A stretch of DNA of 37,396 nucleotides, from positions 1 through 37,396 of the IMG/VR virus record IMGVR_UViG_3300042542_002303. One strand, given 5' to 3'. The position numbers were made by a program, and so were the translations under genes. Below are positions 1 to 37,396 of this stretch, piece by piece (the stretch's first letter is position 1; every line of letters starts with the position of its first letter). Source of the stretch: a virus. The notes beneath the pieces were generated by a model that ran no database searches, was not told the DNA's origin, and saw nothing but the letters and a program-made list of their open reading frames with translations.

Positions 1-127
1 GTCGCAGGGCAGGGGCTCGGCAAGCCACAGAGTCGACAGGGTGCCACTACGGGCCGCGACAACCACCACCGGGCGGGCGCTGGACGAATCGGTAACGAGA
101 TAGCGCCGGCCGGCGACGATGGCGACC
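1..127. repeat. Terminal direct repeat (circular assembly overlap), left copy
   Basis: These 127 bases are repeated exactly at 37270-37396, so the contig closes into a circle of 37,269 bp. The repeat lies inside a protein-coding gene whose reading frame continues without a break across the join. An exact length of 127 matches the largest k-mer commonly used by de Bruijn graph assemblers, so I read it as an assembly overlap and not as a physical terminal repeat of the virion DNA. Confidence 0.93.
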
Positions 128-354
128 GACGCAGCAAGCGGGAGGCTATCGGCACCTTCTGGCACCGCGCCCTGTGTCGTCGTCGACAGCGGGTCGACCG
201 TAGCGGCGACGTAGGCCCCCAGAGCATCGGGAGACTGCGACGGGATGCGTCTCGCCGTCGCCGACGATGGAACGCCGGTCGACACACCGCCATCCGTCGA
301 CAAGCGCGGATACGACAGGATCGTGTCTGTGGAGCCGACCAGCACGCGCTGCAT
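1..354 (-). CDS. Neck / head-tail connector-like protein, N-terminal part (gene crosses the join)
   Basis: This is the first 118 codons of a 301-aa protein that continues at 37269 and ends at 36718. It begins MQRVLVGSTDT with an ATG at 352-354. No Shine-Dalgarno sequence precedes the ATG; a TATAGT -10-like element at 366-361 would start the transcript at or beside the ATG, so the mRNA may be leaderless. It is the first gene of the neck/tail module and follows a terminator (396-440). The part seen here is rich in Ser, Thr, Ala and Val, with no motif I can name. Its role as a head-tail joining or neck protein is inferred from its place between the gp10-like gene and the tail terminator and from its helical C-terminal half. 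Confidence 0.8.
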   Translation of the reverse strand, partial: MQRVLVGSTDTILSYPRLSTDGGVSTGVPSSATARRIPSQSPDALGAYVAATVDPLSTTTQGAVPEGADSLPLAASVAIVAGRRYLVTDSSSARPVVVVAARSGTLSTLWLAEPLPCD

Positions 355-377
355 GGCTGCACTATAATGCAGTTGAC
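355..377 (-). promoter_or_regulatory. Candidate late promoter with 16-bp palindrome CTGCA-N6-TGCAG
   Basis: A perfect palindrome with 5-bp arms lies at 357-372. Read on the minus strand its centre contains TATAGT (366-361), a good -10 element whose expected start point falls on the ATG at 354. There is no recognisable -35 hexamer 17 bp upstream, so an activator or phage factor may be needed. The upstream flank GTCAACTGCA is shared with the palindrome at 23430-23445, ahead of the scaffold/capsid module. Confidence 0.55.
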
Positions 378-395
378 GTCCGGGCGCTACCTGTG

Positions 396-1899: not shown

Positions 1900-3443
1900 G
1901 ACGTGGCCTCATCCTCTTCCTCGTCCTCTTCTTCGACGACAGTAGTCTCGCGTCGCGCCGTGAACGGAGAGCCCGCCAGTGCGCCGGGCAGACTCACCTG
2001 CGGCGCACGGACGGCCCGCATCTGCTCAAGGTACGCTTCCGCCGCCGCACGGTCGGCACTCAGGCCCAGCATCACGCGAGCGTCGGCCTCGTCGATGAGC
2101 CCGGCCTCCCTCAACGCCAACACCCGATCCTGCTTCTCTTGATCGGCCTCATAGGTCTTGCCGGTCGACAGCGTGACCATCGGCTTGACGTCGCCAAACT
2201 CAGCGGGGCTTGCGGGGTCAAACAAGCGCAGCACGTCGATAACGATGGGCAGGAGTTGGCCCTCTTCGAACGCCTTGAATATGGGCCGGCTTTCCGCAAC
2301 GCGCTGATCATGCGGCGCGTTGGCGATCATGCGTGACACGCCGGACTGCGGCGCACCGGGTTCGACGGCGTAGGCGTCGGGTGAGTTGCCTCGCGACACG
2401 CCGAGCTCCTGCAGGTCACGAGTCGCGCTGGCCTCGATAGCAGCGTGGTCCGCGCCGGCAGTCTGCGCCTGCAGCGTCTCGCCGGACCCGATTTGCAGGA
2501 CGACACCTGGACCGCCGACAAGTTCGCTCGTCTCGCGAGTGAGGCCGCTGTAGACCCACGTTGCATGGGCCTGCATGTCGACGACGTGCTGCCGATTGGA
2601 CCTCGACACGTTCAGCCGGTCGACGTTGGCGACGACGTCACGGTCGGGATCGGGCCAGATACCGCCAGCACCGGGCTCGATACGAAGGAACGCGCCGGGG
2701 AAGCGGCCTTCGTATGCCTCCGACGCCGTCGCTGTCTTGCCGTCCTCGCTCACACGCCGATGCGACCACGCGCCAAACGACACGAGATTGCCCGCATCGT
2801 CCTCGACAAACTCCCGTGACCACACCCACCACAAAGGCGACGCCGACGACGGCGTGGCTTGCTTGATGGCGCACAGCCACAAGGCATCGGGGTCATCGGG
2901 GGCCGACGGATGCGCCAGCGTGACGACGTCGTGCGTCCAGTAGATTTGGCAGACCAGCTTGCCGATGTCGCCGATCTTGCGCCAGCCAAGCATGGCAAAC
3001 GACGCACGAGCGCCAGCGTGACAGCGCCGTTCCATCTCTGGCATGACGACGTCAATACCGGCCTCGTCAAGCCCACGCCGAAAGGCGACAAGGCGCTCGT
3101 CATCCTCGTCCAGCGCCTCGCCCTCGTCGTCGACAAGGGTGCGATCCGCTGGCGTGGCGTAGACGCCGCTGTCCTGTCGAGCGAAGAACCGGAGCCAGTT
3201 GACGGGGTCAATCGGAAGCTGCTGATAGGTGCGAGGGTACGCCTTCTTCAGCGCGTCGCGAATCACGCTGGCCTGGTCGCCGCTGTAGCGCACCGCAAGC
3301 CCCTTGACGACGCTATCGTAGTCGGCGGGTCGGGTCTTCCGGCCAGCGTCGAGTAGCGCCGACAACTGGTCTGGCATCCATGCGCCGGCCTGCTGTCGGA
3401 TTGTCTCGATCACGGCATCGCTTGCGGCGTTGTAGGAAATCAT
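1896..3443 (-). CDS. Portal protein
   Basis: 515 aa, ATG start. It lies directly between TerL and the MuF-like gene, the standard place for the portal. The sequence fits a portal of the SPP1 gp6 or HK97 type: a helical N-terminus, a beta-rich wing (around RFPGAFLRIEPG), and a long central helix region around residues 350-420 (SGVSRMIANAPHDQRVAES). The C-terminal tail is very acidic (VEEEDEEEDEATS). It forms the dodecameric ring through which DNA enters and leaves. The upstream gap of 42 bp contains a TTGACT-like hexamer but no properly spaced -10. Family assignment rests on context plus fold-like pattern, not on a single signature. Confidence 0.85.
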   Translation of the reverse strand: MISYNAASDAVIETIRQQAGAWMPDQLSALLDAGRKTRPADYDSVVKGLAVRYSGDQASVIRDALKKAYPRTYQQLPIDPVNWLRFFARQDSGVYATPADRTLVDDEGEALDEDDERLVAFRRGLDEAGIDVVMPEMERRCHAGARASFAMLGWRKIGDIGKLVCQIYWTHDVVTLAHPSAPDDPDALWLCAIKQATPSSASPLWWVWSREFVEDDAGNLVSFGAWSHRRVSEDGKTATASEAYEGRFPGAFLRIEPGAGGIWPDPDRDVVANVDRLNVSRSNRQHVVDMQAHATWVYSGLTRETSELVGGPGVVLQIGSGETLQAQTAGADHAAIEASATRDLQELGVSRGNSPDAYAVEPGAPQSGVSRMIANAPHDQRVAESRPIFKAFEEGQLLPIVIDVLRLFDPASPAEFGDVKPMVTLSTGKTYEADQEKQDRVLALREAGLIDEADARVMLGLSADRAAAEAYLEQMRAVRAPQVSLPGALAGSPFTARRETTVVEEEDEEEDEATS

Positions 3444-3485
3444 GCCGCAACCCTACCACGCCAAAAGTCAAGCGGAAACACCCGG

Positions 3486-5837: not shown

Positions 5838-6173
5838 CTATACCGCTTCAGGTTGCGAAGCAAGGCGGATCACGGTTGCCGGTCTTCCGCGTGTCATGCA
5901 TCCGGTCACTACCGCTTTCCCGTCGGCCTCCAATCTGTCGATGGCCTCTGACAGGGCAGCGGCCCGAAAACGCCGCAAAGCTCGTGTGATTTCTGATCTG
6001 CCCATCGGGCGGGTCTTAAGTAGCGCCACGATGGCCCCCTCCGCTTCCTCAGATGCCGCAGGAACGTTGATCGCCACGCTGACCACCTCACCTATCGCCA
6101 AGTCCTGCGGCGCGGCACAGATGACCACCCTGCGGCCCTGTTGCTCTGTCACGATTCCGGTCGTTGTCGTCAT
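5838..6173 (-). CDS. Winged-helix protein related to the C-terminus of the phage primase
   Basis: 111 aa from the ATG at 6173, chosen for the strong AGGAGG upstream; the frame is open to 6266. The N-terminus is a short beta-rich segment (RRVVICAAPQDLAIGEVVSVAIN). Residues about 48-108 form a winged helix-turn-helix: EGAIVALL, MGRSEITRALRRF, LSEAIDRLEADGKAVV, and a wing with GRP. The same pattern (MGRSDLLRACR, EIVDRLAEEG, GRPREIYAL) ends the primase-helicase encoded just upstream, so the two domains are probably paralogous. Likely a DNA-binding regulator or an origin-binding helper. Candidate AGATCT-centred operators and a TATAAT element lie ahead of it (6235-6304), so autoregulation is possible. 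Confidence 0.8.
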   Translation of the reverse strand: MTTTTGIVTEQQGRRVVICAAPQDLAIGEVVSVAINVPAASEEAEGAIVALLKTRPMGRSEITRALRRFRAAALSEAIDRLEADGKAVVTGCMTRGRPATVIRLASQPEAV

Positions 6174-12006: not shown

Positions 12007-12040
12007 GCCCCGCACGGTGATCCGTGCGGGGCTTTGCTTT
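12007..12040 (+). terminator. Rho-independent terminator after the ssDNA-binding gene
   Basis: A perfect 11-bp stem GCCCCGCACGG / CCGTGCGGGGC with a 4-base loop, followed by TTTGCTTT on the plus strand. It separates the recombinase/SSB pair from the XRE-led operon, so the latter depends on read-through or on a promoter I cannot see. Confidence 0.85.
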
Positions 12041-12050
12041 GGAGATGCAT

Positions 12051-12305
12051 ATGGCCCGCACCTGGTACGACCGAAAAAACGGAGCCCGCACGATGCTTGA
12101 TGGGACTCGCCTACGCGCTCTCCGTGAGGGTATAGGCATGAGCCTGCCCGACGTGGCCCGTGAAACGCGCTGTAGCGTTGCCTCGCTGTCAGTCTGGGAG
12201 AATGAGGGTGCTTGCCCGTCGACGGAGTCTATCGCCGCGCTGCGGGCATTCTACGGCGATGCTTTGGAAGAATCGGGCGCTCTCACGGTGTCCGATGCCG
12301 GATGA
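12051..12305 (+). CDS. XRE-family helix-turn-helix regulator
   Basis: 84 aa from ATG 12051 (GGAG six bases upstream); ATG 12093 is equally well placed after another GGAG and would give a 70-aa protein that begins at the HTH. The HTH spans LRALREGIGMSLPDVARETRCSVAS with the typical LSVWENEG recognition-helix end, then IAALRAFYG. Such proteins are Cro/CI-like repressors or activators. With no integrase in the genome it is more likely a switch for early genes than a lysogeny repressor. It overlaps the RusA-like gene by 11 bp. Its operator could be one of the palindromes at 10704-10724 or 13582-13602. Confidence 0.85.
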   Translation: MARTWYDRKNGARTMLDGTRLRALREGIGMSLPDVARETRCSVASLSVWENEGACPSTESIAALRAFYGDALEESGALTVSDAG

Positions 12306-13968: not shown

Positions 13969-14179
13969 CCCCGACCGCTACTTGCCCGATCCCGGCATCG
14001 ACGACAGCCCCACCGACGCCGAGCTTGCCAGCGTCGCAGACGGCGTCGACGTGACCCGATGGGTGATGGATCTCGTCGACACTGGCGAGGACAGTGCGGC
14101 CCTGCTCCGGTGGGCGCAGGACTGCTACCGAGAGATCATGGATGCGGTGGAGCGTAACCGAGAGGAGCGTGATGCGTGA
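13961..14179 (+). CDS. Small acidic hypothetical protein (72 aa)
   Basis: 72 aa, ATG at 13961 with GAGGTGA upstream. Acidic and helical (DAELASVADGVDVTRWVMDLVDTGEDSA, then CYREIMDAVERN); no family recognised. Its end overlaps the start of the cytosine methyltransferase gene by 8 bp, which suggests translational coupling. Confidence 0.75.
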   Translation: MIDPDRYLPDPGIDDSPTDAELASVADGVDVTRWVMDLVDTGEDSAALLRWAQDCYREIMDAVERNREERDA

Positions 14180-15086
14180 GCTGGCTCTTTTCGCGGGTGC
14201 TGGTGGAGGCATCCTCGGCGGACATCTCCTTGGGTGGCGCACCGTGTGCGCTGTGGAGTGGGACGCCTACGCAGCCTCCGTCCTGGTTGCCCGCCAAAAC
14301 GACAAAATCTTGCCGCCTTTCCCGATCTGGGATGACGTGCAGACGTTTGACGGACGAGCATGGCGAGGCCGTGTTGACGTCGTGTCTGGCGGTTTTCCCT
14401 GTACCGACATCAGCACCGCAGGACGTGGCGCAGGCATCGACGGAGAAGCGTCCGGCATGTGGCGTCACATGGCGCGAATCATCGGTGAGGTACGACCGCA
14501 ATACGTCTTCGTGGAAAACTCACCGGCTCTTGTTCACCGAGGCCTTGCCCGAGTCCTCGGTGACCTTGCCGCGCTGGGGTATGATGCGCGATGGGGTGTG
14601 CTGGGAGCGGCTGACGCCGGGGCACCACACAGGCGCGACCGAATATGGATCGTTGCTGCCGACGCCGACTGCGTCGGTGATGGGAAGCAACACCACCATG
14701 CGACGTCACGGCCAGACGTTAATGAGTCGAGTGTTAATGTGGCCGACGCCCACGGCTCATTCTTGGAAAGAGAAAGGATATCCGGCGGAATACAATCGGA
14801 TGACTCCGGGGCTTGGATCAGTCGTGCTGAAGCCGCATTTGTGGCCGACGCCACAAGCGAGCGATTGCCGCAACAGAGGCAACGCGGACACACCGGCAAT
14901 CGCCAGACGAATCGAAGCTGGCAAGCAAATCACATTGACCATGACTGTCAGTGGTGGGCAACTGAACCCGACGTGGGTCGAGTGGCTCATGGGGTGGCCA
15001 ATCGGGTGGACCGATTGCGCTGTCTCGGCAACGGACAGGTTCCAGAAGTGGTGCGCCTCGCATGGCGCACGTTGATTAACGACTGA
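14172..15086 (+). CDS. dcm: C5-cytosine DNA methyltransferase
   Basis: 304 aa, ATG at 14172 after GAGGAG. The family motifs are in order: I (LFAGAGGGILGG), IV with the catalytic Cys (GGFPCTDIS), VI (FVENS), VIII (RRDRIWIVA), a variable target-recognition region, and X (LGNGQVPEV). It transfers a methyl group from S-adenosylmethionine to cytosine C5, probably protecting phage DNA from host restriction; no cognate nuclease is nearby. The target-recognition region contains repeated VADA units. The whole gene is also open in the +1 frame (14176-15075), where the translation matches another widespread phage protein type. Confidence 0.93.
   Translation: MRELALFAGAGGGILGGHLLGWRTVCAVEWDAYAASVLVARQNDKILPPFPIWDDVQTFDGRAWRGRVDVVSGGFPCTDISTAGRGAGIDGEASGMWRHMARIIGEVRPQYVFVENSPALVHRGLARVLGDLAALGYDARWGVLGAADAGAPHRRDRIWIVAADADCVGDGKQHHHATSRPDVNESSVNVADAHGSFLERERISGGIQSDDSGAWISRAEAAFVADATSERLPQQRQRGHTGNRQTNRSWQANHIDHDCQWWATEPDVGRVAHGVANRVDRLRCLGNGQVPEVVRLAWRTLIND
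14176..15075 (+). CDS. Overprinted +1-frame ORF inside the cytosine methyltransferase gene
   Basis: 299 codons, GTG start four bases into the dcm frame. The translation begins MSWLFSRVLVEAS and carries SSWKTHRLL, WGMMRDGV, three [LW]PTP[TQ]A repeats, and ends LNPTWVEWLMGWPIGWT then DRFQKWCASHG. From memory this matches a phage protein type that is common in databases and usually annotated as hypothetical or methyltransferase-like. It appears to be the alternative frame of dcm genes. It may be a real second product or a persistent annotation artefact forced by conservation of the dcm frame. Only an expression or substitution-pattern test could decide. Confidence 0.35.
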   Translation: MSWLFSRVLVEASSADISLGGAPCALWSGTPTQPPSWLPAKTTKSCRLSRSGMTCRRLTDEHGEAVLTSCLAVFPVPTSAPQDVAQASTEKRPACGVTWRESSVRYDRNTSSWKTHRLLFTEALPESSVTLPRWGMMRDGVCWERLTPGHHTGATEYGSLLPTPTASVMGSNTTMRRHGQTLMSRVLMWPTPTAHSWKEKGYPAEYNRMTPGLGSVVLKPHLWPTPQASDCRNRGNADTPAIARRIEAGKQITLTMTVSGGQLNPTWVEWLMGWPIGWTDCAVSATDRFQKWCASHGAR

Positions 15087-16485: not shown

Positions 16486-16619
16486 TCGCCATACTCTTCG
16501 CCATTGTCGTCGTCAGCGTAGCTGTCGGCCTCGTCTACCTCGCCGACGTATGGGAAGCGCGGGAACGCGCCCGCCGTCGCCATGAGGCCCTGCAATCCTT
16601 CTATGGACGTGAGCCATGA
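16482..16619 (+). CDS. Small single-pass membrane protein (45 aa)
   Basis: 45 aa. One clear membrane segment at residues 2-22 (rich in Ile, Val, Leu and Ala) is followed by a strongly basic cytoplasmic stretch (WEARERARRRHEAL). Coupled by ATGA overlaps on both sides. It could be a membrane-targeted superinfection or host-modulating peptide, or an early inner-membrane protein. It is far from the lysis genes and on the other strand, so a holin role is less likely. Confidence 0.7.
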   Translation: MIAILFAIVVVSVAVGLVYLADVWEARERARRRHEALQSFYGREP

Positions 16620-17224
16620 CCCGAGTCCGTGGAACCGACAAACTTGATCCACCGTCGACGTACCAGCGCATTATCGAGCGTGGGCCGTGGGCCAGTTACG
16701 CCCGATGCGAGGAATGCGGCGTCGACGCCGGCCGCGCCTGTCGAGACATGAACGACCGTGAGGCGCTAGAGGTCTGCGATGAGCGCCGGCTCGTCATCAA
16801 CGACAGCGCCGCCCGCTGCCGTGTGCGGAACGTCGACGACGAGAAGCCGGAGAAGTCTCGCCGCGACAAGCCGCCAGCCAGCGACAAGCGCACGAAGAAA
16901 CGACGAGAGGAAGGCAAAGCAGGTCAGCCGGTCTACGTCGCCTGCCACCACTGCGGCGAGCCGACTCGACTATGGGGGCAGGGCCTGATCTCAGGCCGCA
17001 CGTGGTGCGCGGCCACGGAGTGTCGTCGCCACAAGGGCAGGGTGTATCGCGCCGAACGCAAGGGCCAGAAGCAGCAGCCGCAGACGGTGCCTTGCCATTG
17101 GTGCGGGACTGCCCTGCCAGTCACCGGCCGACATGGTGCCGCCAGACCATGTTGCGGTGACGTCGCTTGCTCGTCTGCGATCAAGTACGAGACGGCGAGA
17201 CATCGGGCGGCTGCTACCCCGTGA
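16616..17224 (+). CDS. Multi-zinc-finger protein of unknown function
   Basis: 202 aa, ATGA-coupled. Three cysteine clusters: an N-terminal C-x2-C-x6-C set (CEECGVDAGRAC), a middle set with CHHCG and later CAATEC, and a C-terminal set with CHWCG and CCGDVAC. The linker between the first and second is highly basic (KSRRDKPPASDKRTKKRRE). The N-terminal cluster resembles the small zinc-finger domain common in phages. A nucleic-acid-binding role is likely. Last gene of the rightward operon; its end overlaps the end of the convergent endolysin gene by 11 bp with no terminator between them. Confidence 0.82.
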   Translation: MTRVRGTDKLDPPSTYQRIIERGPWASYARCEECGVDAGRACRDMNDREALEVCDERRLVINDSAARCRVRNVDDEKPEKSRRDKPPASDKRTKKRREEGKAGQPVYVACHHCGEPTRLWGQGLISGRTWCAATECRRHKGRVYRAERKGQKQQPQTVPCHWCGTALPVTGRHGAARPCCGDVACSSAIKYETARHRAAATP

Positions 17225-18132: not shown

Positions 18133-18364
18133 TGTGGTTTCCCTTCAGCAAAAGTGCTTCAATGCGGTCGAATCTTTTGTCCATCTCGGCCTGCATCTTC
18201 TCGACGCTGCCGGCCACCATCGCCAGCGCTTCCTTGCTGGCCTTGTCGCTGCGCAGCTCCGATGTGATCTCCTCGAGACGGCGCACACGAGCCTGTAGCG
18301 CCGCCCATGCCGCTGCGCCACCTGTCGCTGCCGAGAGAGCACCGATAGCGATTTGCTCAATCAC
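18119..18364 (-). CDS. Membrane plus coiled-coil protein, holin or inner-spanin candidate
   Basis: 81 aa from GTG 18364 (GAGG upstream, 4-bp overlap with the phospholipase gene). One N-terminal membrane segment (IAIGALSAATGGAAAWAAL) is followed by a long charged coiled coil (RVRRLEEITSELRSDKASK, then VEKMQAEMDKRFDRIEALL). This topology is seen in XhlA-like lysis accessory proteins and in inner-membrane spanins. I see no lipobox-bearing outer spanin partner nearby. Its place between the phospholipase and the endolysin supports a lysis role. Confidence 0.7.
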   Translation of the reverse strand: MIEQIAIGALSAATGGAAAWAALQARVRRLEEITSELRSDKASKEALAMVAGSVEKMQAEMDKRFDRIEALLLKGNHSGTR

Positions 18365-19209
18365 GCCACACCTCGAAACCACGCGCCGCAGAGACGGACG
18401 GTGTCGTAGCCGGTCGACCACTCACGTTCGACGCGCTGCCTGTTTTTCTTGAATGCCCAATCGTTGACGGCGTCCACGTCAACATCCAGCCCGTCAGTGC
18501 GTCTCGACTTGCGTTGCGATGGAGCCCACAGCAGAGCACGGGGAATCGCAGAGAGAATCGCCGGGACGTCACCTGGGCGGATGCGGCCGGCCGGGTCCAT
18601 CGGTGCCTCACCGAGACGCACGGATACGCGAGGCTCCGGCTTGTGGTCCCAGACGCTGTCGACAGTGTTGTCGGTGAACCCGCCATCGCCATACAGACGA
18701 ATGTCGGGAGACAACTCCGTGCCGATTGACGGGATGACCGCCGCAGGGACCACGCCGCACATGAACGACGACGACGCGATGACCGCCTCGCGCACCACAA
18801 TGCGCGGTGTGCTGTGCTTCGACAGGTATACGGGCCTCGCCCTGTCGAGGTCAGTCACGCACACCACAAGCCCGCTGGTTGCGTCTCCGAGTCGTGCGCC
18901 CTTACCGACGTGCGTGTCGACGAGGTCGCCGATGACGTCGAGAGAAAACAGACCACCACGGGGCACACTGGCCGGCGACAGCGCGAGAGTCTGTCCACTC
19001 TCCAGCACGTCGACGAGCATGGCGACGATGACTTCGTCGGGCAGACCAAATGCCTTGCACGTCGCGACGATGGAGCCCGCCGATGCACCGCTCCACCCAA
19101 GCACTTTCGCGTGTGCGTCGACGGCAGCAGCAGCACCGGCGAGGTAGGTGATAGCGGGGCCACCTCCACTGATACTGGCGTACACTGCACGACGTGACAT
19201 GCCGGTCAC
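18361..19209 (-). CDS. Patatin-like phospholipase
   Basis: 282 aa from GTG 19209 (GTGA overlap; an ATG lies three codons in). The patatin fold markers are in order: glycine-rich oxyanion loop SGGGPAITYLAG near residue 15, nucleophile elbow GASAGS (G-x-S-x-G), the REAVIASSSF helix, and the catalytic aspartate in YGDGGFTDN. The Ser-Asp dyad is complete. Patatins hydrolyse acyl chains from phospholipids. No signal peptide or fused domain is visible. It lies in the late operon between a membrane protein and a membrane/coiled-coil protein, just before the endolysin, so membrane attack at lysis is a reasonable inference. Interaction with host membrane defence is an alternative. Confidence 0.87.
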   Translation of the reverse strand: MTGMSRRAVYASISGGGPAITYLAGAAAAVDAHAKVLGWSGASAGSIVATCKAFGLPDEVIVAMLVDVLESGQTLALSPASVPRGGLFSLDVIGDLVDTHVGKGARLGDATSGLVVCVTDLDRARPVYLSKHSTPRIVVREAVIASSSFMCGVVPAAVIPSIGTELSPDIRLYGDGGFTDNTVDSVWDHKPEPRVSVRLGEAPMDPAGRIRPGDVPAILSAIPRALLWAPSQRKSRRTDGLDVDVDAVNDWAFKKNRQRVEREWSTGYDTVRLCGAWFRGVA

Positions 19210-21709: not shown

Positions 21710-22702
21710 TCAGTCGAGGTCGTAGATGATCTTGCAGCCGTGCTCGTCGGTGTGCTCGGCGACCGACCAGCACCAACGACCAACGGCGAGCAGGGTGTCG
21801 TCGGAGAGATCGTACTGGAAGCCCAGCGACGGCTCGTAGCGTTCGACCATCTCAGCGAAGCCACGCACGGAGCCGGGGGTGCCCGTCTCGCCACGGCCAG
21901 CGACGATGAGCGCGGCGACACGGTCGACGCCAGCGTTCGCGGTCTGCATGACGTTCTTGTTCGCGCTGTAGATCGGGATACCAGCGAACGAACCACGGAA
22001 GCCGTTGCGCGAGGCATCGGGCCGGTGGTTGAAGAACGACACATCGCCGCTTCCGCCGCCGCCAAAGATGGCCGACAGCGACGCGCCAGTGCCCGACGCA
22101 GCGAGGGTGCGCAGGTCGGCGAGGCCCTGCTCTTCAAGCACGAAGACGAGGTCTTCCGACGACGGGTTGTTATCCATGACCTTGAGCAGCGCATCCAACA
22201 GCGTGACGAAGCTGAGCGGCTGGTTGCTCGTGCCGGCGCTCTCCGACAGACCCGAGAAGAGGGCGAGGGCGTCAGTCTCAGCGCGGAGATAGTGGGCCTC
22301 AAGGATCTCGGTGATGGCATCACGCACGAGCGGCAGGGCACCGGGGTTGTTCCCCTCGATGGCAGCAATCACCTGGCTGCGCGGAACACCGGGGAGCGCG
22401 AGTTCGACGGCGTCGGCGGTGAGCTGGATGCCCTGAACCTTGGTCGTCGGGGTGATCGAAATGTTCGCCTGCACACCAAGCGCGGCCGGGTTGGAGAACG
22501 CGATGCCCTCGCTGTCGTCGACAGCGGCGGCAATCGCGGACTTCTTGCGGATCTTGCGCACCTTGGAGGCGCGGCCGCTGATGTCGGCCATGTTGAGGAA
22601 GGGGAGCAAGACGTACTTGCCGCGAAGCGGGTCAAGCGCAAGCTGCGACATGACCTCGGTGAGAATCCAATTTGCGACGGTCGTGCTGCTAGAGACGGGC
22701 AT
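21710..22702 (-). CDS. Major capsid protein (HK97 fold likely)
   Basis: 330 aa, ATG at 22702 with AGGTGA upstream. It follows a scaffold-like gene and is followed by a strong terminator, as expected for the most abundant virion protein. The pattern fits HK97-fold capsids of the scaffold-using type: an N-terminal arm, DPLRGKYVLLPFLNMADISG, a helical spine (VRDAITEILEAHYLRAETDALALF), a glycine-rich loop (SAIFGGGGSGDVSFF), then GIPIYSANKNV and a C-terminal beta domain (VERYEPSLGFQYDLSDDT). No protease gene is present, so maturation may proceed without cleavage or with an unrecognised enzyme. Confidence 0.85.
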   Translation of the reverse strand: MPVSSSTTVANWILTEVMSQLALDPLRGKYVLLPFLNMADISGRASKVRKIRKKSAIAAAVDDSEGIAFSNPAALGVQANISITPTTKVQGIQLTADAVELALPGVPRSQVIAAIEGNNPGALPLVRDAITEILEAHYLRAETDALALFSGLSESAGTSNQPLSFVTLLDALLKVMDNNPSSEDLVFVLEEQGLADLRTLAASGTGASLSAIFGGGGSGDVSFFNHRPDASRNGFRGSFAGIPIYSANKNVMQTANAGVDRVAALIVAGRGETGTPGSVRGFAEMVERYEPSLGFQYDLSDDTLLAVGRWCWSVAEHTDEHGCKIIYDLD

Positions 22703-22729: not shown

Positions 22730-23386
22730 TCAAGCGTTTTGCGCCTTGGTCGTCGGCGAGAATCGCCCAACGCCAAGGGAGGGCGAACCGCCGTTGCGGT
22801 TCGCCAGAACTCGATTGAAGAACGCAGCCACCGCGCCGGGGTCGCGCTTCTTTATCTCGGCCAACTTCGCGCCGCTCTTGTCCGCAAGCGCGGCCTCGAT
22901 ATCGACGGCGGACACCGGAGCCGGCGCACCCATCGGCGGGGGCTGGCCCTTGACGGGTGCCGCGCTCGACGTGGCGCGGAAAGCAGCAAGTACCTTGCGG
23001 CGGGCCTCGATATCGGAGGCAGTCGCGTAGAGGTCACGCACCGCTTCCGGCAATGCGGCAGCTTCAGCGTCGAGACGCTTGGCTTCCTCGGCCTCATAGC
23101 TGCGCCACTTGGCAGCCAGCGGCTCAAGCCCCTCCAACTCGGCGAGACGGGCCTTGGCGGCTTCCAGCGCCTTCGTTGTCTCGCCAGCCGCCTCGGCCTC
23201 CGCCTGAAGGCGCTTGCGCTCCTCGCGGGCGGCTGCTTTGGCCGAAGCCTGTTCCGCTTTCAGGGCCGCGAGTTCAGCGGCAGCGGCCTTGAGCGCGTCG
23301 AGGTCCACGACGTCAGGTGAAGGGGCAGCAGAGCCCGCTACAGGCTCCGTGGAGGGGGTTTGCGCGGCATCGCCGGAGGTGGTCAT
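22730..23386 (-). CDS. Capsid scaffolding protein
   Basis: 218 aa, ATG at 23386 without a clear Shine-Dalgarno. Classic scaffold composition: a disordered Pro/Ser/Ala N-terminus, a long charged coiled coil (residues about 30-135, for example KAAAREERKRLQAEAEAA and LAAKWRSYEAEEAKRLDAEA), a Pro-rich hinge (KGQPPPMGAPAPV), then a basic helical C-terminus that would bind the capsid protein. Directly upstream of the capsid gene. First gene of the capsid/lysis module, behind two copies of the late palindrome. Confidence 0.85.
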   Translation of the reverse strand: MTTSGDAAQTPSTEPVAGSAAPSPDVVDLDALKAAAAELAALKAEQASAKAAAREERKRLQAEAEAAGETTKALEAAKARLAELEGLEPLAAKWRSYEAEEAKRLDAEAAALPEAVRDLYATASDIEARRKVLAAFRATSSAAPVKGQPPPMGAPAPVSAVDIEAALADKSGAKLAEIKKRDPGAVAAFFNRVLANRNGGSPSLGVGRFSPTTKAQNA

Positions 23387-23398
23387 GCCGGCAGTCTA

Positions 23399-23450
23399 CT
23401 GCACCATAGTGCAGACGCGCAACCCGGACCTGCACTCTTTTGCAGTTGAC
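23399..23450 (-). promoter_or_regulatory. Candidate late promoter region with two CTGCA-N6-TGCAG palindromes
   Basis: Perfect palindromes at 23399-23414 and 23430-23445, 31 bp apart (about three helical turns). On the minus strand the proximal one contains TATGGT (23408-23403), which would start the transcript about 10 nt before the ATG at 23386. The distal one is preceded by GTCAACTGCA, the same 10 bases found at the tail-module promoter (355-377). Confidence 0.55.
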
Positions 23451-24128: not shown

Positions 24129-25439
24129 TCAGGGGTCGAAGTAAATGCAGACGCCGGTCATCTGAACGAGGTCGCTTAATCCGCCCGATGGGCCGACGTG
24201 ACGGACGCGCACGTCCAGCTGATTCGTGGCGGCGGTCGTGAACGGGACGCCGGTTATTTGCGCTCGCCACCAACGCGACCCGCCGATCTGCGTCGGCGCG
24301 ACCTCGGTAGCAGCCGCAGACCCGACTGCGTCAAAGCGCCAGTTGGCAAGGCTGTCGTTATCCGGTGCCTCCATCAGTACCTCGACCTTCAAGTCTGACG
24401 GCGACGTGCGGAAGCCTGGCATCTGTAGGATGGTGCCCGAGAACACCGACGCCGCTGTTGCGTGTTTGTCGGGGTAGCGGATCCATCCCGACAACTGCGT
24501 CAGGCTCGGCGTCTTTGGCGACGCGATGTCTGCCGACGCACCCACCGCTATGGACGTGATCGGAAACTCAAGCAGCGCCTCAGCCGACCACGTCGTCCGG
24601 TTGTTGTTCCATGTGTTGCTGATCTGCCTCGCGAAGTTGCCGGGGACAGTGCCCCCGGTGACGTACTCCCAGAGCGCGTTAATCTTGCGGTTGAGTCTCG
24701 ACGTCACCCACGCCGACAACGGGCCATCGGTAACGACTTCCTCGTCGTAAAACTCCAACACGTTGGCAGGCTCGTAGGACGCCAAAGCACCGTAGGGCGA
24801 GTCTTGCACGGCTGTGCCTTCGACGAGGATTCCGTTGCTGTTGCCGGCGCTTCCGCGCTGATGGTCAAGCGCCCATCGGAACAAGGTTGCGCCGGTGTCG
24901 ATGTCGCGCATGAAGCGCTTGACAAGGATGTAGTGAATGCCAGTCGTGGCCAGCAGGAATGTCCACGAGACAGATACATTGCTTGGGGTCGCAGAACGCA
25001 ACCCATCAGCGACGGGCGGAGGTGCGGCCTCACGCTCTCCGGGTGTCGGATTGACCGTGACTGTCCACGACGTGTTGCGAACCTCAAGCGTCACGGGGTC
25101 GTCGCCAAACGGAGTCACGTCGACGACAAGGCGATAGTAGCCAGTCTCGCCAGCCCGCACAAAGACCGGCACGGCAAGGATGTAGTAGTTCCCATCGGCT
25201 CCGCTGACGTTGCCGACAATCCGTCCGATATGCTGCGCGGCAAGCGGCATCCGTAGCTGGCATCCAAGCGGTGCGCCGCTGTGGTCAATCGGCGTCGTCG
25301 AGTTGGCCCCGGTCGCAAGGTCACTAGCGAGCGCCACGTCGCCCGCCGCAGTGGCGAGCCAGCGGCGGAAAATGCTGGCGTCTGGCGACGTGTCGCGAGG
25401 TGGGACGCCCACGGGCGATGCAGAACGTAGACGGGCCAT
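24129..25439 (-). CDS. Distal tail / fibre-like protein (436 aa)
   Basis: 436 aa from ATG 25439, overlapping the previous stop (TAATG) with GAGGTGG upstream. Beta-rich throughout: YYILAVPVFVRAGETGYYR, DDPVTLEVRNTSWTVTV, then a C-terminal domain with SRWWRAQITGVPF and LDVRVRHVGPSGG. The N-terminal region around PIDHSGAPLG is shared with the 220-aa neighbour. Position after the hub-like protein suggests a fibre or receptor-binding protein. No enzymatic motif found. Confidence 0.7.
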   Translation of the reverse strand: MARLRSASPVGVPPRDTSPDASIFRRWLATAAGDVALASDLATGANSTTPIDHSGAPLGCQLRMPLAAQHIGRIVGNVSGADGNYYILAVPVFVRAGETGYYRLVVDVTPFGDDPVTLEVRNTSWTVTVNPTPGEREAAPPPVADGLRSATPSNVSVSWTFLLATTGIHYILVKRFMRDIDTGATLFRWALDHQRGSAGNSNGILVEGTAVQDSPYGALASYEPANVLEFYDEEVVTDGPLSAWVTSRLNRKINALWEYVTGGTVPGNFARQISNTWNNNRTTWSAEALLEFPITSIAVGASADIASPKTPSLTQLSGWIRYPDKHATAASVFSGTILQMPGFRTSPSDLKVEVLMEAPDNDSLANWRFDAVGSAAATEVAPTQIGGSRWWRAQITGVPFTTAATNQLDVRVRHVGPSGGLSDLVQMTGVCIYFDP

Positions 25440-27664
25440 TAGCGCCACCTCGGTTCGTTGTCAGTGTTGGCGTTTGCGCCTGCGTTGCCGTCGCTGTCGG
25501 CCAGCTTGGCGAGTTCTATCAGGCTGTAGCCTGACGCGCTTGTGCCAGTGCTGCTCGTCTCAGGGTTGAGCACGACGTAATCCTCGTTTTCTTTAATCGC
25601 GAAGGCTGGGACGCTGTCGATTTCGATCTGCGTCGTCGACGGGATGGTGTTGATGTTTGTCGCGTGGGTCGCTGGCGTCGTCGCCAGAGAAGACCTGTCG
25701 ACGATGGTGATTCCTGCGCCGACCCAGAAGTCATTAGCTGGCGACGTGCCGGACACTTCCGGTGTCGTCGTGGACAGAGTGTAGGTTTTGACGCCGTCGA
25801 AGGCCGTGATCGTCGCCGCAGGGCAGACATGCAGCAGCCGGTCCAGCAACTCAAGCCGCACATCGACACGAGCCTGGTCATAGCGCGGACGACGCGCCAC
25901 CACGCGAGCCGACAGACCAAGGATCGACCCGCCACGGAAGTCGGGCAGATCGTAGGCGTCGGGAAGGTCGGTGCCCAGAGTGACGACGTCGCCGATGCGG
26001 AGTCCCAAGTGCTCGTGCGACAGCGACAGCGAGAGAAAGCGCCGGCCCAGCGTGGAGCCCTTCATCACGGCGTCAACGTAGACGATAAGGTCTTCAACGC
26101 GCATCGACACCGGGTTGCGCCAAGCCGGCGCATCGAACCCGATGGGGAAGCCGCCGTCGATGCCAATCGACTTGATCTCCACCTCTAACTTGTTCGTGTT
26201 GCGCTGGTATTTCTTCGCAAGGTCGACGTTGACGAGCGGGGCCTCGACCGTGAAATCGCCAGAGCGGATATCGTAGCCGCCGCGCACGGTGAGAAGCGGG
26301 TAGACGTTGGCTTCGTCGCAGGTGACGGTGAGCGGTCCATCTGGGATGACGTCGTCAGCGCCGATTGTCGTCGTGTTGACGATGCGCGGCGGTGCAAGCG
26401 TGATCGGCTTGATCTTGCCGTCGACGGTGGAGACGATGGCGGTGTTGGTCAGCAACGTCCACTCGCGGAGGACGTCGGTCAATTTCTCCTCGCGCTCGAC
26501 GACGAAGAGCGAATTGACGAACGGCACCGCCTCGAATGCGGCGATGTCAACCTCTGTCGTCGTGAATGCTGCGCCCATGCGCCAGCCGCCCTCGTAAGTC
26601 GAGGCTGGCAGACGGCCCGGTAGGCGGTCGTAGGACGTCGCGCCTTGCCCCTCACGAGACAGCAGCAGATAAGGCAGCGCCGCCCCGATGAAGGTTGCGA
26701 TGGGCCTGATGGTCGCGTCGAGAAGACCGACGCCGGTGAGGATGTGCGGTGTACCGAACGATGGCGATAGGGCCAACTCGACGATGTCGTTCGTCGTGTC
26801 GACGGAGATTAACGTGTAAATGGCGAACACCTCACGACCTGAACGTCGTGACGTGGCGTCGATGGCAACATACGTCGGGAAGGAGGAGCCGAGACGAAAT
26901 GCGGACGCATCCTCCACTTGCACATTGATGTGAGACGACGTGATTGATGCGACGCCAAGCGCCGCCTGCTCACGCAAGCCCAGCCCGATTGAGCGCTCCC
27001 AATACTCCTGGACGATGCCGGCGCACCGAAGCGTCCATCGGAGGTCGCCGGCCTGAACGGGTGCCTCGTCGATGAGGTAGGTACCCAACAGCGTCGACGT
27101 GTAGAGCCCTCCGCCATCGGGCGCATGGCCGTAGAGCGACACACGGCGACCACGCCAGAACGGAGGCACAACGTAGACGCTATCGCCGTCGCTGGCAGTG
27201 CCGTAGAGCGCGGCCGCCGTCGACCCAAACGCACCACGGGTGCAGCCGGTGAGGGATGTGCCCGATGCGACGGTTCCCACCGTGATCGTCTCGGCTCCGA
27301 CGTAGATGTGCTGGCCACCGACAAGCGCCGCCGTAGACGCCAGCGTGATCGTCGTCGCCGATACCGTGGAGGTCGCGGACGCCCACGTCACAGACCGCGA
27401 CGCCGTGGCGAAGAGGTCGGCAAGGACGCCGGCATCGTCCAGCATTTCAAGGTCCAATGTCGCCGCCATCTCGCGACGATCTTCGTAGGACAGCGTCGAC
27501 TCGCCCTCTTCGACGCGAGTCAGACACACGATTGGCGTTCGCCCGCCCCACACCGCTGGCGACGTCGGAAGGTTGCGCTCGACGAAGACGACGGGGATTC
27601 CCTCGACAACCACCGAGAGGTGAAGGTCGACGTGCTCGTTTGCTGTGCGCCCGTAGTAGGCCAT
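25439..27664 (-). CDS. Tail tip / baseplate hub-like protein (741 aa)
   Basis: 741 aa, ATG at 27664 in a TGATG overlap, with AGGTGA upstream. Second gene after the tape measure, where the tail-associated hub protein normally lies. The sequence is mostly beta with an early DLEMLDDAGVLADLF region, a segment rich in Thr/Ser/Ala around residues 90-165, long middle domains (for example RRFLSLSLSHEHLGLRIGDVV), and a Thr/Ser/Asn-rich end. Domain order resembles hub proteins that carry an ordered core and a flexible tip. I cannot match it to a named family; the role is from position and size. Confidence 0.7.
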   Translation of the reverse strand: MAYYGRTANEHVDLHLSVVVEGIPVVFVERNLPTSPAVWGGRTPIVCLTRVEEGESTLSYEDRREMAATLDLEMLDDAGVLADLFATASRSVTWASATSTVSATTITLASTAALVGGQHIYVGAETITVGTVASGTSLTGCTRGAFGSTAAALYGTASDGDSVYVVPPFWRGRRVSLYGHAPDGGGLYTSTLLGTYLIDEAPVQAGDLRWTLRCAGIVQEYWERSIGLGLREQAALGVASITSSHINVQVEDASAFRLGSSFPTYVAIDATSRRSGREVFAIYTLISVDTTNDIVELALSPSFGTPHILTGVGLLDATIRPIATFIGAALPYLLLSREGQGATSYDRLPGRLPASTYEGGWRMGAAFTTTEVDIAAFEAVPFVNSLFVVEREEKLTDVLREWTLLTNTAIVSTVDGKIKPITLAPPRIVNTTTIGADDVIPDGPLTVTCDEANVYPLLTVRGGYDIRSGDFTVEAPLVNVDLAKKYQRNTNKLEVEIKSIGIDGGFPIGFDAPAWRNPVSMRVEDLIVYVDAVMKGSTLGRRFLSLSLSHEHLGLRIGDVVTLGTDLPDAYDLPDFRGGSILGLSARVVARRPRYDQARVDVRLELLDRLLHVCPAATITAFDGVKTYTLSTTTPEVSGTSPANDFWVGAGITIVDRSSLATTPATHATNINTIPSTTQIEIDSVPAFAIKENEDYVVLNPETSSTGTSASGYSLIELAKLADSDGNAGANANTDNEPRWR

Positions 27665-29037: not shown

Positions 29038-30872
29038 GCTGCACCTCGTCGGCGGTTGCCGCTGGACGTGACCTTGTGGATCTCGCGGGCGATATCCTCT
29101 GGCAGCGGTCCGCCTGCACCGTATGCCACGTTGACAATCAATGGGCCACCGGAGCCGCCGCCGCCGCTGCTACGGGGGGAGGCACCAGGGTCGCGGGTCG
29201 CCTTGTCGTCGAGGGGCTTGCCGATGGTGCCGCCTGCGGCTGTGTGTGACAGCGCGGCAGAGCCTGCGCCCATGCCGACGCCAGCGGCGACAGCAAGGCC
29301 GCCTAGGCCGAGCATGGCTGGCCCTCGTGGGTCGCCTAGGATCGACATTCCGGCACCCTCGAAAAGGTACTTCGTACCGATGCCAACAAGCTGATCTCCG
29401 GTCGCCGCCAAGAACGCAGCGGCTGCTAACTGCTCTGCGTTCTCAGCGCCTTCAATCTTCGCCTTGAAGTAGTCCTCTGAGACATTTATCAGCGTCGTCG
29501 TCGCACCCTGTGCAAGCTGGCCGATATCGTTATACATGCCTTCATATTGCTTGACGTTGTCCTTCAGATTCTTGAATTCATGCGCCTTCAGCTTGTCAAG
29601 ATTTTCCATCTTGTGATTCATGGCGACTGTGTCGAACGCCATGCGAGCGGCGAGGCTTTCACCCTCAAGTTGCTCTAGGCGCGACTGGTGAAGCTGCTCT
29701 GCGCGTTCGCGTTCGCGCCTCTGCTTGTCCATGTCGCGAAATTCGTCTGCCATTTCCTTCGCTTGTTTTTTTCTGTCTGCTGCTCGCGCTTTTTTGACGG
29801 CCTCTAGCGCTTTGTCTTCATCGTCAAGCATTGCGACATGAAGGTCGTAGCGAAGCTTCGCTTCGTCTTCGGCCTGCTTTTCTGCGTCTTTTGTTTTCTT
29901 ATCTTGAGACGCTTTGTATGCCTCTTCTTGCGCGTTCGCCGCATCGACGGCTGCATCTGTCTTCAGTTGCTCAATGCGCTCGGCCTCAATGGACTCATAT
30001 CGACGGAGAAGAACCTGTTCTTCGATGGCAAGATTGTATGCGTCGGTGACCTTGCGGTACTCGGCCATAACGTCTTTTGCAGCGACGCGAACCTTCTCCA
30101 TCTCCTGCTTCTGGGCGTTCCAGCGAGTGATCCAAGTGTCAAGACCGCCCTGCGCCTGCGACGCAATCATGCCCATCGCACGTTGATCGTTTGGGTCGAT
30201 TCCAAATTGTGACCGGAATGTCGTCTGCGCTTGTTTGCCTGCGTTGGCGGCCTCCTCGACTGCCATCTTCTGCGCTTGAATCCGCCCCATGCTTGCGCCG
30301 AGGATCAGATCCTGCATTTCGGTGTCGGCGTCTTGAATGGCCTTCTTCAGGTCTTCCATGTGCGATGCCGCAGCATCGGCTCCGGCCTTGCCTGCGTCGC
30401 CAACGCCGCCAAAGTTCTTGATGAGTTGATTGACGCCGACTGCGGCTAGCGAAATAGCGGCGGTGAGGCCGGCGCTACCCCCGATGGCCAACACCATCCC
30501 AGGGATGTTGTTGATGACGCCGCCGATCCCATACTGAAGGTCTTCCATCGCTCGCGACGCTTCAAGCGCCGCCATCCCAAAGCCGCCCCCCCGAGCCGTG
30601 CCAATCGCCTGCGATGCCCTGTTGGCTGCAATGCGTGTGGTGTTGAGTTGAGTTGTGAGGCGATTCATCTCCTCGCGATAAAATCCCGTGTTTGGCCCGC
30701 CCGCCATGATGGCGGCGTTCAAATCTTTGATGTCTCGCTCAAGCGCAATGATGCTTTTGTCGACGCGAGCGACGACGGTGTCGACGCCACCGAAGCGTTT
30801 CTCTACGTCGGCAACGGCCGCCTGCGCTTGCGTGGCGTTGACCTTGACGACGTACTCGATTGTCTGCGTCAT
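29034..30872 (-). CDS. Tape measure protein
   Basis: 612 aa, ATG in an ATGA overlap with the chaperone fusion frame. N-terminal YVVKVNATQAQAAVADVEKRF and long helices with heptad character are typical of tape measures. A hydrophobic segment lies near residues 115-150 (GGVINNIPGMVLAIGG onward). A long charged coiled coil spans about 290-450, followed by another hydrophobic Gly/Ala stretch (GLGGLAVAAGVGMGAG) and a Gly-rich C-terminus. Tape measures set tail length; 612 residues at about 0.15 nm each would give a tail near 90 nm. The gene follows the G/GT chaperones, as in other siphoviruses. Confidence 0.93.
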   Translation of the reverse strand: MTQTIEYVVKVNATQAQAAVADVEKRFGGVDTVVARVDKSIIALERDIKDLNAAIMAGGPNTGFYREEMNRLTTQLNTTRIAANRASQAIGTARGGGFGMAALEASRAMEDLQYGIGGVINNIPGMVLAIGGSAGLTAAISLAAVGVNQLIKNFGGVGDAGKAGADAAASHMEDLKKAIQDADTEMQDLILGASMGRIQAQKMAVEEAANAGKQAQTTFRSQFGIDPNDQRAMGMIASQAQGGLDTWITRWNAQKQEMEKVRVAAKDVMAEYRKVTDAYNLAIEEQVLLRRYESIEAERIEQLKTDAAVDAANAQEEAYKASQDKKTKDAEKQAEDEAKLRYDLHVAMLDDEDKALEAVKKARAADRKKQAKEMADEFRDMDKQRRERERAEQLHQSRLEQLEGESLAARMAFDTVAMNHKMENLDKLKAHEFKNLKDNVKQYEGMYNDIGQLAQGATTTLINVSEDYFKAKIEGAENAEQLAAAAFLAATGDQLVGIGTKYLFEGAGMSILGDPRGPAMLGLGGLAVAAGVGMGAGSAALSHTAAGGTIGKPLDDKATRDPGASPRSSGGGGSGGPLIVNVAYGAGGPLPEDIAREIHKVTSSGNRRRGAA

Positions 30873-31892: not shown

Positions 31893-32207
31893 TCACACGC
31901 GCTGGGGAACGTCGACAATCGTCAGGGTGCCCGACAGCACGGGCAGATTCTCGTCGACGTCGGACACCCACACCTCATAGACCCATCGGCCGGGCTGAAG
32001 TGCGCCAGCGTAGTCCGCCGCCGCGAACGTAAACGTGGCCTCGCCCGTCGCCGGTGAAACGACCGTCCCAGCCTTCGCCAGTTGACCCTGAGCGCGAACA
32101 ACCATCGTGACCGTGTATCCGGTCAGGTTGAACGGTCCGCCGCCGCTGGCGTTGATTTGGAGCGTTACGGTCTGGGTGTGGCCCTGTTTGATCGATAGCG
32201 CCGTCAT
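31893..32207 (-). CDS. Ig-like or baseplate-upper-protein-like virion protein (104 aa)
   Basis: 104 aa, ATG at 32207 (ATGA overlap; AGGTG upstream). All-beta sequence: KQGHTQTVTLQINAS, FNLTGYTVTMVVRA, GEATFTFAAADYAGAL, GRWVYEVWVSD and SGTLTIVD. This order resembles the small beta-sandwich (BppU N-terminal/Ig-like) domains of tail proteins that bind or decorate other virion proteins. Accessory tail role inferred. Confidence 0.7.
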   Translation of the reverse strand: MTALSIKQGHTQTVTLQINASGGGPFNLTGYTVTMVVRAQGQLAKAGTVVSPATGEATFTFAAADYAGALQPGRWVYEVWVSDVDENLPVLSGTLTIVDVPQRV

Positions 32208-36272: not shown

Positions 36273-36721
36273 GTGCTGTACCTCAATTCAAGAGTCATTC
36301 GGAGTCGGCGAGCACCGCTCACCTGTTCCACAGTGTAGGGGGCCACGTCGGTCCCTGCTGGCGTGACAGCGACGATGCCAGACGTAGCGCGGTCCCAGTT
36401 GGACCCGAGCGCAAATGCCGCCGCAAGCTGCGCGGCATCGGTCGGGATGGCCTCGTCAATAGCCGAGGTGTTGCCGACGCTGTCGACGTACTCGACGACG
36501 ATCTCCCATGTCAGCCGATGTCGGGTCTGCTGCACCTGGTACGGCCCCTCGGCCGCACCCGACAACACGCGACCCCACCATCGGCGCGACTGCGTTCCGA
36601 CCGTCTCGTCGTGACCCGCCACATCGTGCGTAAAGCGCGACGGGAGCCCACGCGAGACGACGGCAGGGGTGATGCCGCCGGGGATCGCCACAAGGGCGCG
36701 GCGGGCATCCTGCCATGTCAC
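36269..36721 (-). CDS. Tail terminator / tail completion protein
   Basis: 150 aa, GTG at 36721 in a GTGA overlap with the neck gene, GAGG upstream. It fits the size and fold pattern of tail terminators: an N-terminal helix (TWQDARRALVAIPGG), then strands HRLTWEIVVEYVD and a final sheet (YTVEQVSGARRLRMTLELRYS). Position directly before the tube gene supports the role of capping the tail tube at the neck. Confidence 0.75.
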   Translation of the reverse strand: MTWQDARRALVAIPGGITPAVVSRGLPSRFTHDVAGHDETVGTQSRRWWGRVLSGAAEGPYQVQQTRHRLTWEIVVEYVDSVGNTSAIDEAIPTDAAQLAAAFALGSNWDRATSGIVAVTPAGTDVAPYTVEQVSGARRLRMTLELRYST

Positions 36722-37396
36722 CGTGAAATCCTCATGAAGCGCGGGCCTTGTGAACCCGGCGTCGGAATCTCCGGTGTGACCTCGTCCTGCGAACGGGTGA
36801 TCAGGTCGATACGGTCGTATGTGGTCTGCTTGATCTGCTCGTAGCTGGCCTCAAGCCGCGACACGAATTCCGATGGGGCGGCTGGCCACTGGCGGGCGAG
36901 GTGGACCACCGTGGCGGCAGCATGCATCGGCACAAGCACGTCATCGGTGAGCACGTCTTCGTCGAGGATGCCACGCGCCGCAAGCGCCGGGACAAGCACC
37001 ATCCGCCACGATGCTTGGATGGCTTCTTCAAGGGTGAGGTCGCTTGACGACGCAATCTGACGGACGACGGGATAGGACTGCGTCAGCTCTGTCGGTGACA
37101 GCGCAATCGACGTGATGCGCCTGACAACGCGGAACGACTCGTCCCATTCACGGACAACGCCGTCGACGGTGGCCCGGAAGAGCACATAGCCCGCGCCGGG
37201 CTCGATGGTCTGTGCTGCCGTCAGGGCCACAGACACAGCCAGACCGCTCACAGTCGACGCATGGCCAAGGTCGCAGGGCAGGGGCTCGGCAAGCCACAGA
37301 GTCGACAGGGTGCCACTACGGGCCGCGACAACCACCACCGGGCGGGCGCTGGACGAATCGGTAACGAGATAGCGCCGGCCGGCGACGATGGCGACC
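36718..37396 (-). CDS. Neck / head-tail connector-like protein, C-terminal part (gene crosses the join)
   Basis: Continuation of the gene that starts at 354; together 301 aa. This part has beta strands around residues 90-160 (RPVVVVAARSGTLSTLWLAE; GAGYVLFRATVDGVVREW) and a helical C-terminal domain (DLTLEEAIQASWRMVLVPALA, VPMHAAATVVHLARQW, RLEASYEQIKQTTYDRI) resembling helical head-tail adaptor proteins. An internal start at 37338 is possible but has no advantage once the circle is closed. It overlaps the tail terminator gene by 4 bp. Confidence 0.82.
   Translation of the reverse strand, partial: VAIVAGRRYLVTDSSSARPVVVVAARSGTLSTLWLAEPLPCDLGHASTVSGLAVSVALTAAQTIEPGAGYVLFRATVDGVVREWDESFRVVRRITSIALSPTELTQSYPVVRQIASSSDLTLEEAIQASWRMVLVPALAARGILDEDVLTDDVLVPMHAAATVVHLARQWPAAPSEFVSRLEASYEQIKQTTYDRIDLITRSQDEVTPEIPTPGSQGPRFMRISR
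37270..37396. repeat. Terminal direct repeat (circular assembly overlap), right copy
   Basis: Exact copy of bases 1-127. Removing either copy gives the 37,269-bp unit genome. The join falls in the neck-protein gene, whose start codon is at 354 and whose stop is at 36718. Confidence 0.93.

Follow-up and report, generated by a model that had tools for sequence, protein, structure and literature searches.

What does the palindrome CTGCA-N6-TGCAG ahead of the tail module of this virus do: is it a promoter, or a site at which a promoter is controlled? The initial annotation regarded it as a phage-specific late control element built around a −10 box. The window, i.e. the whole stretch of 37,396 nucleotides analysed here, closes into a circle of 37,269 bp, its ends sharing a 127-bp repeat. 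Because the record is circular, the first gene of the tail module crosses the record ends, running from 354 to 1 and then on to 36718. The genes at the starts of the two modules concerned are:

1–354, minus strand: 5′ part of the first tail-module gene (whole gene 301 aa; the A of its ATG at 354)
36718–37396, minus strand: 3′ part of the first tail-module gene (the final 127 bases of the window repeat 1–127)
22730–23386, minus strand: scaffold gene, named by position only (218 aa, ahead of the capsid-like gene)
21710–22702, minus strand: capsid-like gene, named by position only (330 aa; query used for finding relatives)

All structural genes of the window lie on the minus strand. The names assigned with PHROGs are terminase, neck protein, tail protein, primase, helicase and metallo-phosphoesterase. 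The first tail-module gene gave no family match, and no match above the cut-off was found for the scaffold and capsid-like genes. A search of genome contigs with the capsid profile found no relatives. Remote matches among annotated phages were confined to the terminase (919 records) and the primase (344 records), with zero matches for the capsid-region DNA, the capsid, the portal and the protein d discussed below. The early operon contains a C5 cytosine DNA methylase gene (14094–15086). Integrase (PF00589) and resolvase (PF00239) domains were not found in the eleven records that were compared whole or nearly so; in control genomes the same search detected PF00589 in 14/14 and PF00239 in 11/14. 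Temporal control in a virulent phage is therefore likelier than lysogeny.

Exact copies of the palindrome were found at 357–372, 23399–23414 and 23430–23445, as the initial annotation had claimed, and none elsewhere in the record; a reversed-pattern control gave no copies. The genome-wide search also bore out the low chance expectation, which is 0.042 copies by composition and on average 0.069 by dinucleotide shuffling. The maximum in 1000 shuffles was two copies, and three or more occurred in none (0/1000). Three copies alone are nevertheless not decisive, since 5-N6-5 inverted repeats number 84 in the window, and the arms GCGTC and GTGAC are likewise present three times. With up to two mismatches the pattern falls to chance level in the window (19 observed, 21.2 expected). 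What carries weight is position and conservation, not count. All three copies lie where the tail and scaffold/capsid modules begin, and the element, hereafter type A, recurs in relatives ahead of the first tail gene (28/28 sequences) and ahead of the scaffold gene (8/16). A type A weight matrix matched these two promoters only in 7/7 type A genomes (G008 and G009 among them contain the tail site only), except for one 9.1-bit match elsewhere in G006. The same matrix gave no matches in four type B genomes, which are described below. The initial description thus holds for an element that is specific to a phage group and sits at module starts, whereas the word "late" derives from gene functions only.

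The elements of the tail promoter are arranged as follows:

357–372, minus strand: type A palindrome CTGCATTATAGTGCAG, putative operator (−18 to −3 before the tail-module ATG)
361–366, minus strand: −10 element TATAGT inside the palindrome (6 bases before the ATG at 354)
373–377, minus strand: conserved GTCAA flank 5′ of the palindrome (25/28; it also precedes the upstream scaffold copy)
384–389, minus strand: weak −35-like TAGCGC (17 bp from the −10 element TATAGT)

Relatives of the first tail gene were found at 29 loci, 27 of which reach upstream of the start (L084 and L087 do not). Together with the window they make 28 tail sequences, 13 of them distinct in palindrome, −35 and flank. TGCA-N6-TGCAG is kept in all 28, and so is a −10 element of the form TANANT within the palindrome (TATAGT in 15, TAGAGT in 11, TATACT in two), which agrees with the initial observation that the palindrome encloses TATAGT. 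The gap between the −10 and the ATG is seven bases in 26/28 sequences and six in 2/28. The −35-like hexamer, TAGCGC and its variants, begins with T in 28/28 and has G as its third base in 26/28. In L064, L066, L067, L077 and L082 the sequence further upstream is unrelated to that of the window, and the element is still retained. No ribosome-binding site is visible ahead of the tail ATG or the scaffold ATG. On the minus strand at 390–430, in the interval that separates the neck gene from the tail gene, a GC-rich inverted repeat runs into TTTTT; it is terminator-like by eye, and the terminator scan made no call there.

The scaffold promoter is organised differently, with the layout TTGCGC-18-TAGACT-6-ATG and two copies of the palindrome:

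23393–23398, minus strand: −10 element TAGACT, 6 bases before the ATG (TANNNT in 16/16 sequences)
23399–23414, minus strand: type A palindrome CTGCACTATGGTGCAG between the −35 and −10 elements (−28 to −13)
23417–23422, minus strand: −35 element TTGCGC (TTG in 16/16 sequences)
23430–23445, minus strand: type A palindrome CTGCAAAAGAGTGCAG, the upstream copy (−59 to −44; spaced 31 bp from the downstream one)

Sixteen upstream regions were aligned, from 15 capsid loci and the window. All of them have a TTG-type −35, a spacer of 17 or 18 bp, a TANNNT −10 and an ATG 6 or 7 bases further on. The sigma-70-type core TTG-17/18-TANNNT is thus present at 16/16 scaffold promoters and weak at the tail gene; a generic sigma-70 scan called neither promoter. 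Among the eight type A regions, both copies are perfect in five (the window and L023–L026) and one copy is altered by one or two bases in L027, L030 and L032. A distance of 31 or 32 bp separates the two copies, and it is the downstream one that occupies the spacer. In the other eight regions the promoter is retained and the palindrome is absent. The scaffold −10 and −35 lie outside the palindrome and are both kept where it is missing, and the earlier view of the element as the promoter itself is not supported. The statement that there is no matching −35 applies at best to the tail promoter, where TAGCGC is merely weak, and fails at the scaffold promoter, where TTGCGC stands 18 bp from TAGACT. 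Nor is TATRGT conserved in the scaffold copy: relatives have TAGAGT, CAGAGT or TCTAGT at this place, and the conserved −10 lies further downstream. Since the N6 of the downstream copy varies, TATRGT is not its kept feature. The sequence GTCAAC-TGCA, noted earlier as shared, is common to the tail copy and the upstream scaffold copy and is absent from the downstream scaffold copy.

Relatives that lack type A carry other elements at the same promoters, either type B (GTTATGTAAGCG-like) or type C (CTTTGCC-N5-GGCAAAG). In G003, G005, G007 and G012, GTTATGTAAGCG or GCTATGTAAGTG and their variants occupy the scaffold spacer and the tail −10 region. A type B matrix built from ten sites, with the portal sites excluded, revealed a further site in G003, G007 and G012, where it overlies the CTTACA −35 of the portal promoter; the matrix also matched the coding region of the zinc gene in G012, probably by chance. 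A search for more B-type tail genes yielded 13 loci, namely ten B sequences and three contigs with a third element. The variants among the ten B tail sequences are TTATTTAA in three, CTACATAA in one and TTATGTAATAG in one. The third element, type C, is CTTTGCCAAAATGGCAAAG at the tail genes of the three contigs, where it lies over TTGCCA-17-CAGAAT-6-ATG. The contig G014, judged from protein identities to be a close relative of one of them, has no tail gene; as predicted from the tail genes, it carries a pair of type C copies just upstream of the scaffold gene, spaced by 32 bp and one of them with a single mismatch, over the promoter TTGCCA-17-TATGGT-7-ATG. This is the type A architecture with another code. 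Among the 11 records searched, the type C pattern with two mismatches allowed also matched others at scattered places, and one exact match stands elsewhere in the type B genome G030. The portal promoter of type A phages (3440–3480 in the window) has an unusual layout: CTTGAC stands just 10 bp before TAGGGT, and 3 bp before it in G006.

In all 13 genomes in which both sites are readable, the two sites are of one type. Five of these are of type A (the window, G001, G002, G004 and G006) and eight of type B (G003, G005, G007, G012 and G027–G030); the type C tail and scaffold sites come from different contigs. The gene order is neck-tail-scaffold in A and neck-scaffold-tail in B, and the sites nonetheless stay with the gene starts. 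Since three sequence types fill these promoters in the relatives, the element can be read as an interchangeable operator, and A, B and C as what appear to be three unrelated codes used at the same promoters.

The relation between operator type and ancestry was assessed with quick trees, tried for 25 genes and usable for 22. One A/B change suffices in 18/22 trees; the others are those of the terminase, the first early gene and the capsid (two changes each) and of gene g (three). In a careful capsid tree one A/B change is sufficient, with weak support, and this tree does not reject operator type tracking capsid ancestry alone. A single clade of B is rejected for gene g (p_AU 3e-6) and for the first early gene (1e-7). 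Since these two genes crossed between A and B, the two types share a gene pool; the first early genes of G001 (A) and G005 (B) are 95% identical, and gene g of G007 (B) is 91% identical to that of the window (A). Judged from the trees, types A and B still appear to be largely two lineages. As one change is enough in 18/22 trees, any lineage-specific gene correlates with type equally well. Real-looking genes present in all A and in no B are d (16616–17224), a patatin-like gene and the gene at 31893–32207, which is missing from the fragment G009. The patatin-like phospholipase gene (18361–19209 in the window, on the strand of the structural genes) was seen in type A genomes only.

We consider it fairly probable that the palindromes are operators through which a repressor, likely encoded by the phage, controls the tail and scaffold/capsid promoters, each phage using one operator type. 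Relative to the ATG, the sites are centred at −10.5 (tail) and at −20.5 and −51.5 (scaffold) in type A, at −31.5 (portal), −25.5 (scaffold) and −10.5 (tail) in type B, and at −28 (tail) and at −29 and −61.5 (scaffold) in type C. Every promoter has a site between −38 and −3, a stretch in which bound protein should stand in the way of the polymerase, and no fixed register is kept across types and genes. Because the centre is variable, a repressor operator fits better than an activator site or a sigma-factor element. As with repressor operators, a genome-specific site recurs inside the promoter cores, and the sites change in concert within a genome (13/13). One operator type at all promoters of a phage further implies a specificity factor that changes with them.

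In the proposed mechanism, a trans-acting regulator, most likely a phage-encoded repressor, would bind TGCA-N6-TGCA as a dimer and cover the host-type promoters (TTG...TANNNT) of the tail and scaffold/capsid modules, with one site over the −10 of the former and one in the spacer of the latter. The second scaffold site lies three helical turns upstream (31–32 bp) on the same face of the DNA, which suggests cooperative binding. Transcripts of both modules probably begin at the ATG and would be leaderless. Occupied early in infection, the sites would keep the structural genes silent; dilution or degradation of the regulator, or an excess of replicated genomes, would then release them. The specificity factor would change with the operator type, the best candidate being a zinc-cluster protein (d in A and C, a protein of another family in B). 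A repressor encoded by the last early gene would be an odd order for early silencing. If the mechanism is true, the structural genes of this uncultured phage group are on by default and are held off by an early repressor; their switch is then not a late activator, an antiterminator or a sigma factor. The three codes at the same promoters would then be a natural experiment on the joint change of a regulator and all its sites, and phages of different operator types might shut each other out of a shared host.

A late activator, for example a zinc protein acting in the manner of P2 Ogr, might instead bind the palindromes and recruit the polymerase to weak promoters. The Ogr and Delta late activators of P2 are small zinc proteins that serve a few late promoters through an inverted repeat, the Ogr sites being located near −55. 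A small zinc protein, here a candidate, a few late promoters and an inverted repeat are also what we find. The upstream scaffold copy, at −51.5 (A) or −61.5 (C), is at the usual distance of an activator, the tail −35 is weak, and the end of the early genes, where the candidate is encoded, is a place at which a late activator would be expected. Unlike the situation in P2, however, all promoters here have a core site, and at differing positions. The data do not show the upstream site that an Ogr-type activator would have at all late promoters, as no second upstream site was seen at the A or C tail promoters. In addition, a protein lying over −18 to −3 should exclude the polymerase. A search of d against Pfam at E 1 gave no Ogr match, although short divergent zinc proteins may escape such a search. 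Taken together, we regard an activator as unlikely. The sites could also be read by a host transcription factor. In that case the hosts of A, B and C phages would differ in such factors, and the phages would rely on these for their timing. The phage regulator is a candidate only and the types largely follow lineages, as this would have it; the exchange of genes between A and B (95% for the first early gene, 91% for gene g) suggests shared hosts instead, and such a host factor seems to us quite improbable.

The initial suggestion of a specialised promoter for an alternative or phage sigma factor agrees with the tail −10, which lies inside the palindrome and is invariably TANANT. It is at odds with the scaffold −10 and −35, which lie outside the palindrome and survive its loss, with the variable register, and with types B and C, which replace the element entirely; we hold it to be very unlikely. 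An RNA hairpin, i.e. a terminator or a translation control in transcripts entering from upstream genes, is the last possibility, and we give it hardly any credence. The identical 16-mer does occur in hairpins with T runs in unrelated AT-rich contigs, with a fold z-score of −2.67 for the one folded, but the window sites are not followed by a T run, have fold z-scores of −0.55 and −0.94, and overlap promoter elements. In seven AT-rich contigs the identical 16-mers lie between other genes and were judged to be hairpin terminators. One unrelated AT-rich phage group (L037, L038, L050, L052, L053, L056 and L058) has pairs of CTGCA-N6-TGCAG 32–33 bp apart, some copies being identical to the window 16-mer; that both core and spacing agree is a striking coincidence. 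Phages of this group have genes that, from their protein sequence, we take to be ThyX-like.

The repressor-operator reading has a parallel in the Cluster A mycobacteriophages, which have genome-specific operator/stoperator motifs with cognate repressors (PMC6550527). In these phages there is one motif per genome, the motifs differ in related phages, and some operators lie inside promoters; the Cluster A repressors have cognate specificity, while for the present phages we infer a corresponding one (PMC6550527). The Cluster A sites are 13 bp long, are bound by an HTH repressor, number up to 30 per prophage and are mostly outside promoters (PMC6550527). The phages studied here differ in having three to four known sites, symmetric in A and C and placed at structural-gene promoters, and no integrase or resolvase. 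Many sites outside promoters, as is typical of stoperators, were not found: the type A sites are at two promoters only in the seven A genomes, bar the 9.1-bit match of G006. A literature search, in which subscription journals were thinly covered, found no published description of these elements. A similar half-site is known for AphA, which is PadR-like. The AphA box is ATATGCA-N6-TGCATAT, which has the same TGCA half-site spacing as type A (PMC6018088). No PadR match in Pfam was obtained for the window proteins scanned, which are a subset of its proteins.

For the repressor of the operator reading, one gene of the window stands out:

16616–17224, plus strand: candidate regulator d, a protein with three cysteine clusters (202 aa) that ends the early operon

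The gene d was found in 7/7 type A genomes, and in six of them it lies after a DNA methyltransferase gene at the end of the early operon. The same place is taken in type C by a diverged d (35% over 112 aa; 34% in the alignment) and in six B genomes by another family of small cysteine-cluster proteins with the conserved start LFSxGV; in G005 and G030 the contig ends before this position. From its distribution and position, the zinc-cluster protein d would be the best candidate for the regulator, and a candidate only. The association of regulator and operator type is a correlation, since the types largely follow lineages. G006 has kept type A operators though its d is only 30% identical, which is no closer than the type C protein. 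No recognised DNA-binding fold was found in d (model pLDDT 49.8, best structural match Z 3.5). It shows a weak sequence match (E 0.024) to TraR, which we take to be an RNA-polymerase binder. PHROGs gave nothing firm on the zinc proteins. In the loci L154–L157 and L159, which hold relatives of d, no A, B or C site and no capsid or tail-gene match was found. Tentatively, and with some doubt, d and its B-type replacement may be seen as new cysteine-cluster, non-helix-turn-helix repressors that silence the structural genes of integrase-less phages and whose specificity has evolved into three or more codes; the promoters, the operator-bearing gene starts and the pairing at 31–32 bp in A and C would have stayed fixed, and virulent phages would thereby have gained something like immunity types.

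Other candidates were considered and rejected. An XRE-type helix-turn-helix protein (12024–12305, plus strand) occurs in the window, G004 and G009; G001, G002 and G008, likewise of type A, encode HTH proteins that are very unlike it, their genes being divergent from the first early gene. Because they are dissimilar among type A genomes, the HTH proteins do not fit as the regulator. The wHTH gene at 5838–6173 has one confident relative in viral contigs and partial, weak matches in G006 and G009. In replication modules of a second kind, an HTH gene is divergent from the first early gene, and each early promoter holds a different sequence (G001 25141–25362, corresponding to L091 5141–5362; G002 29719–30009; G005 25714–26382). 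Such a module is common to G001 (A) and G005 (B) at 92–95% identity.
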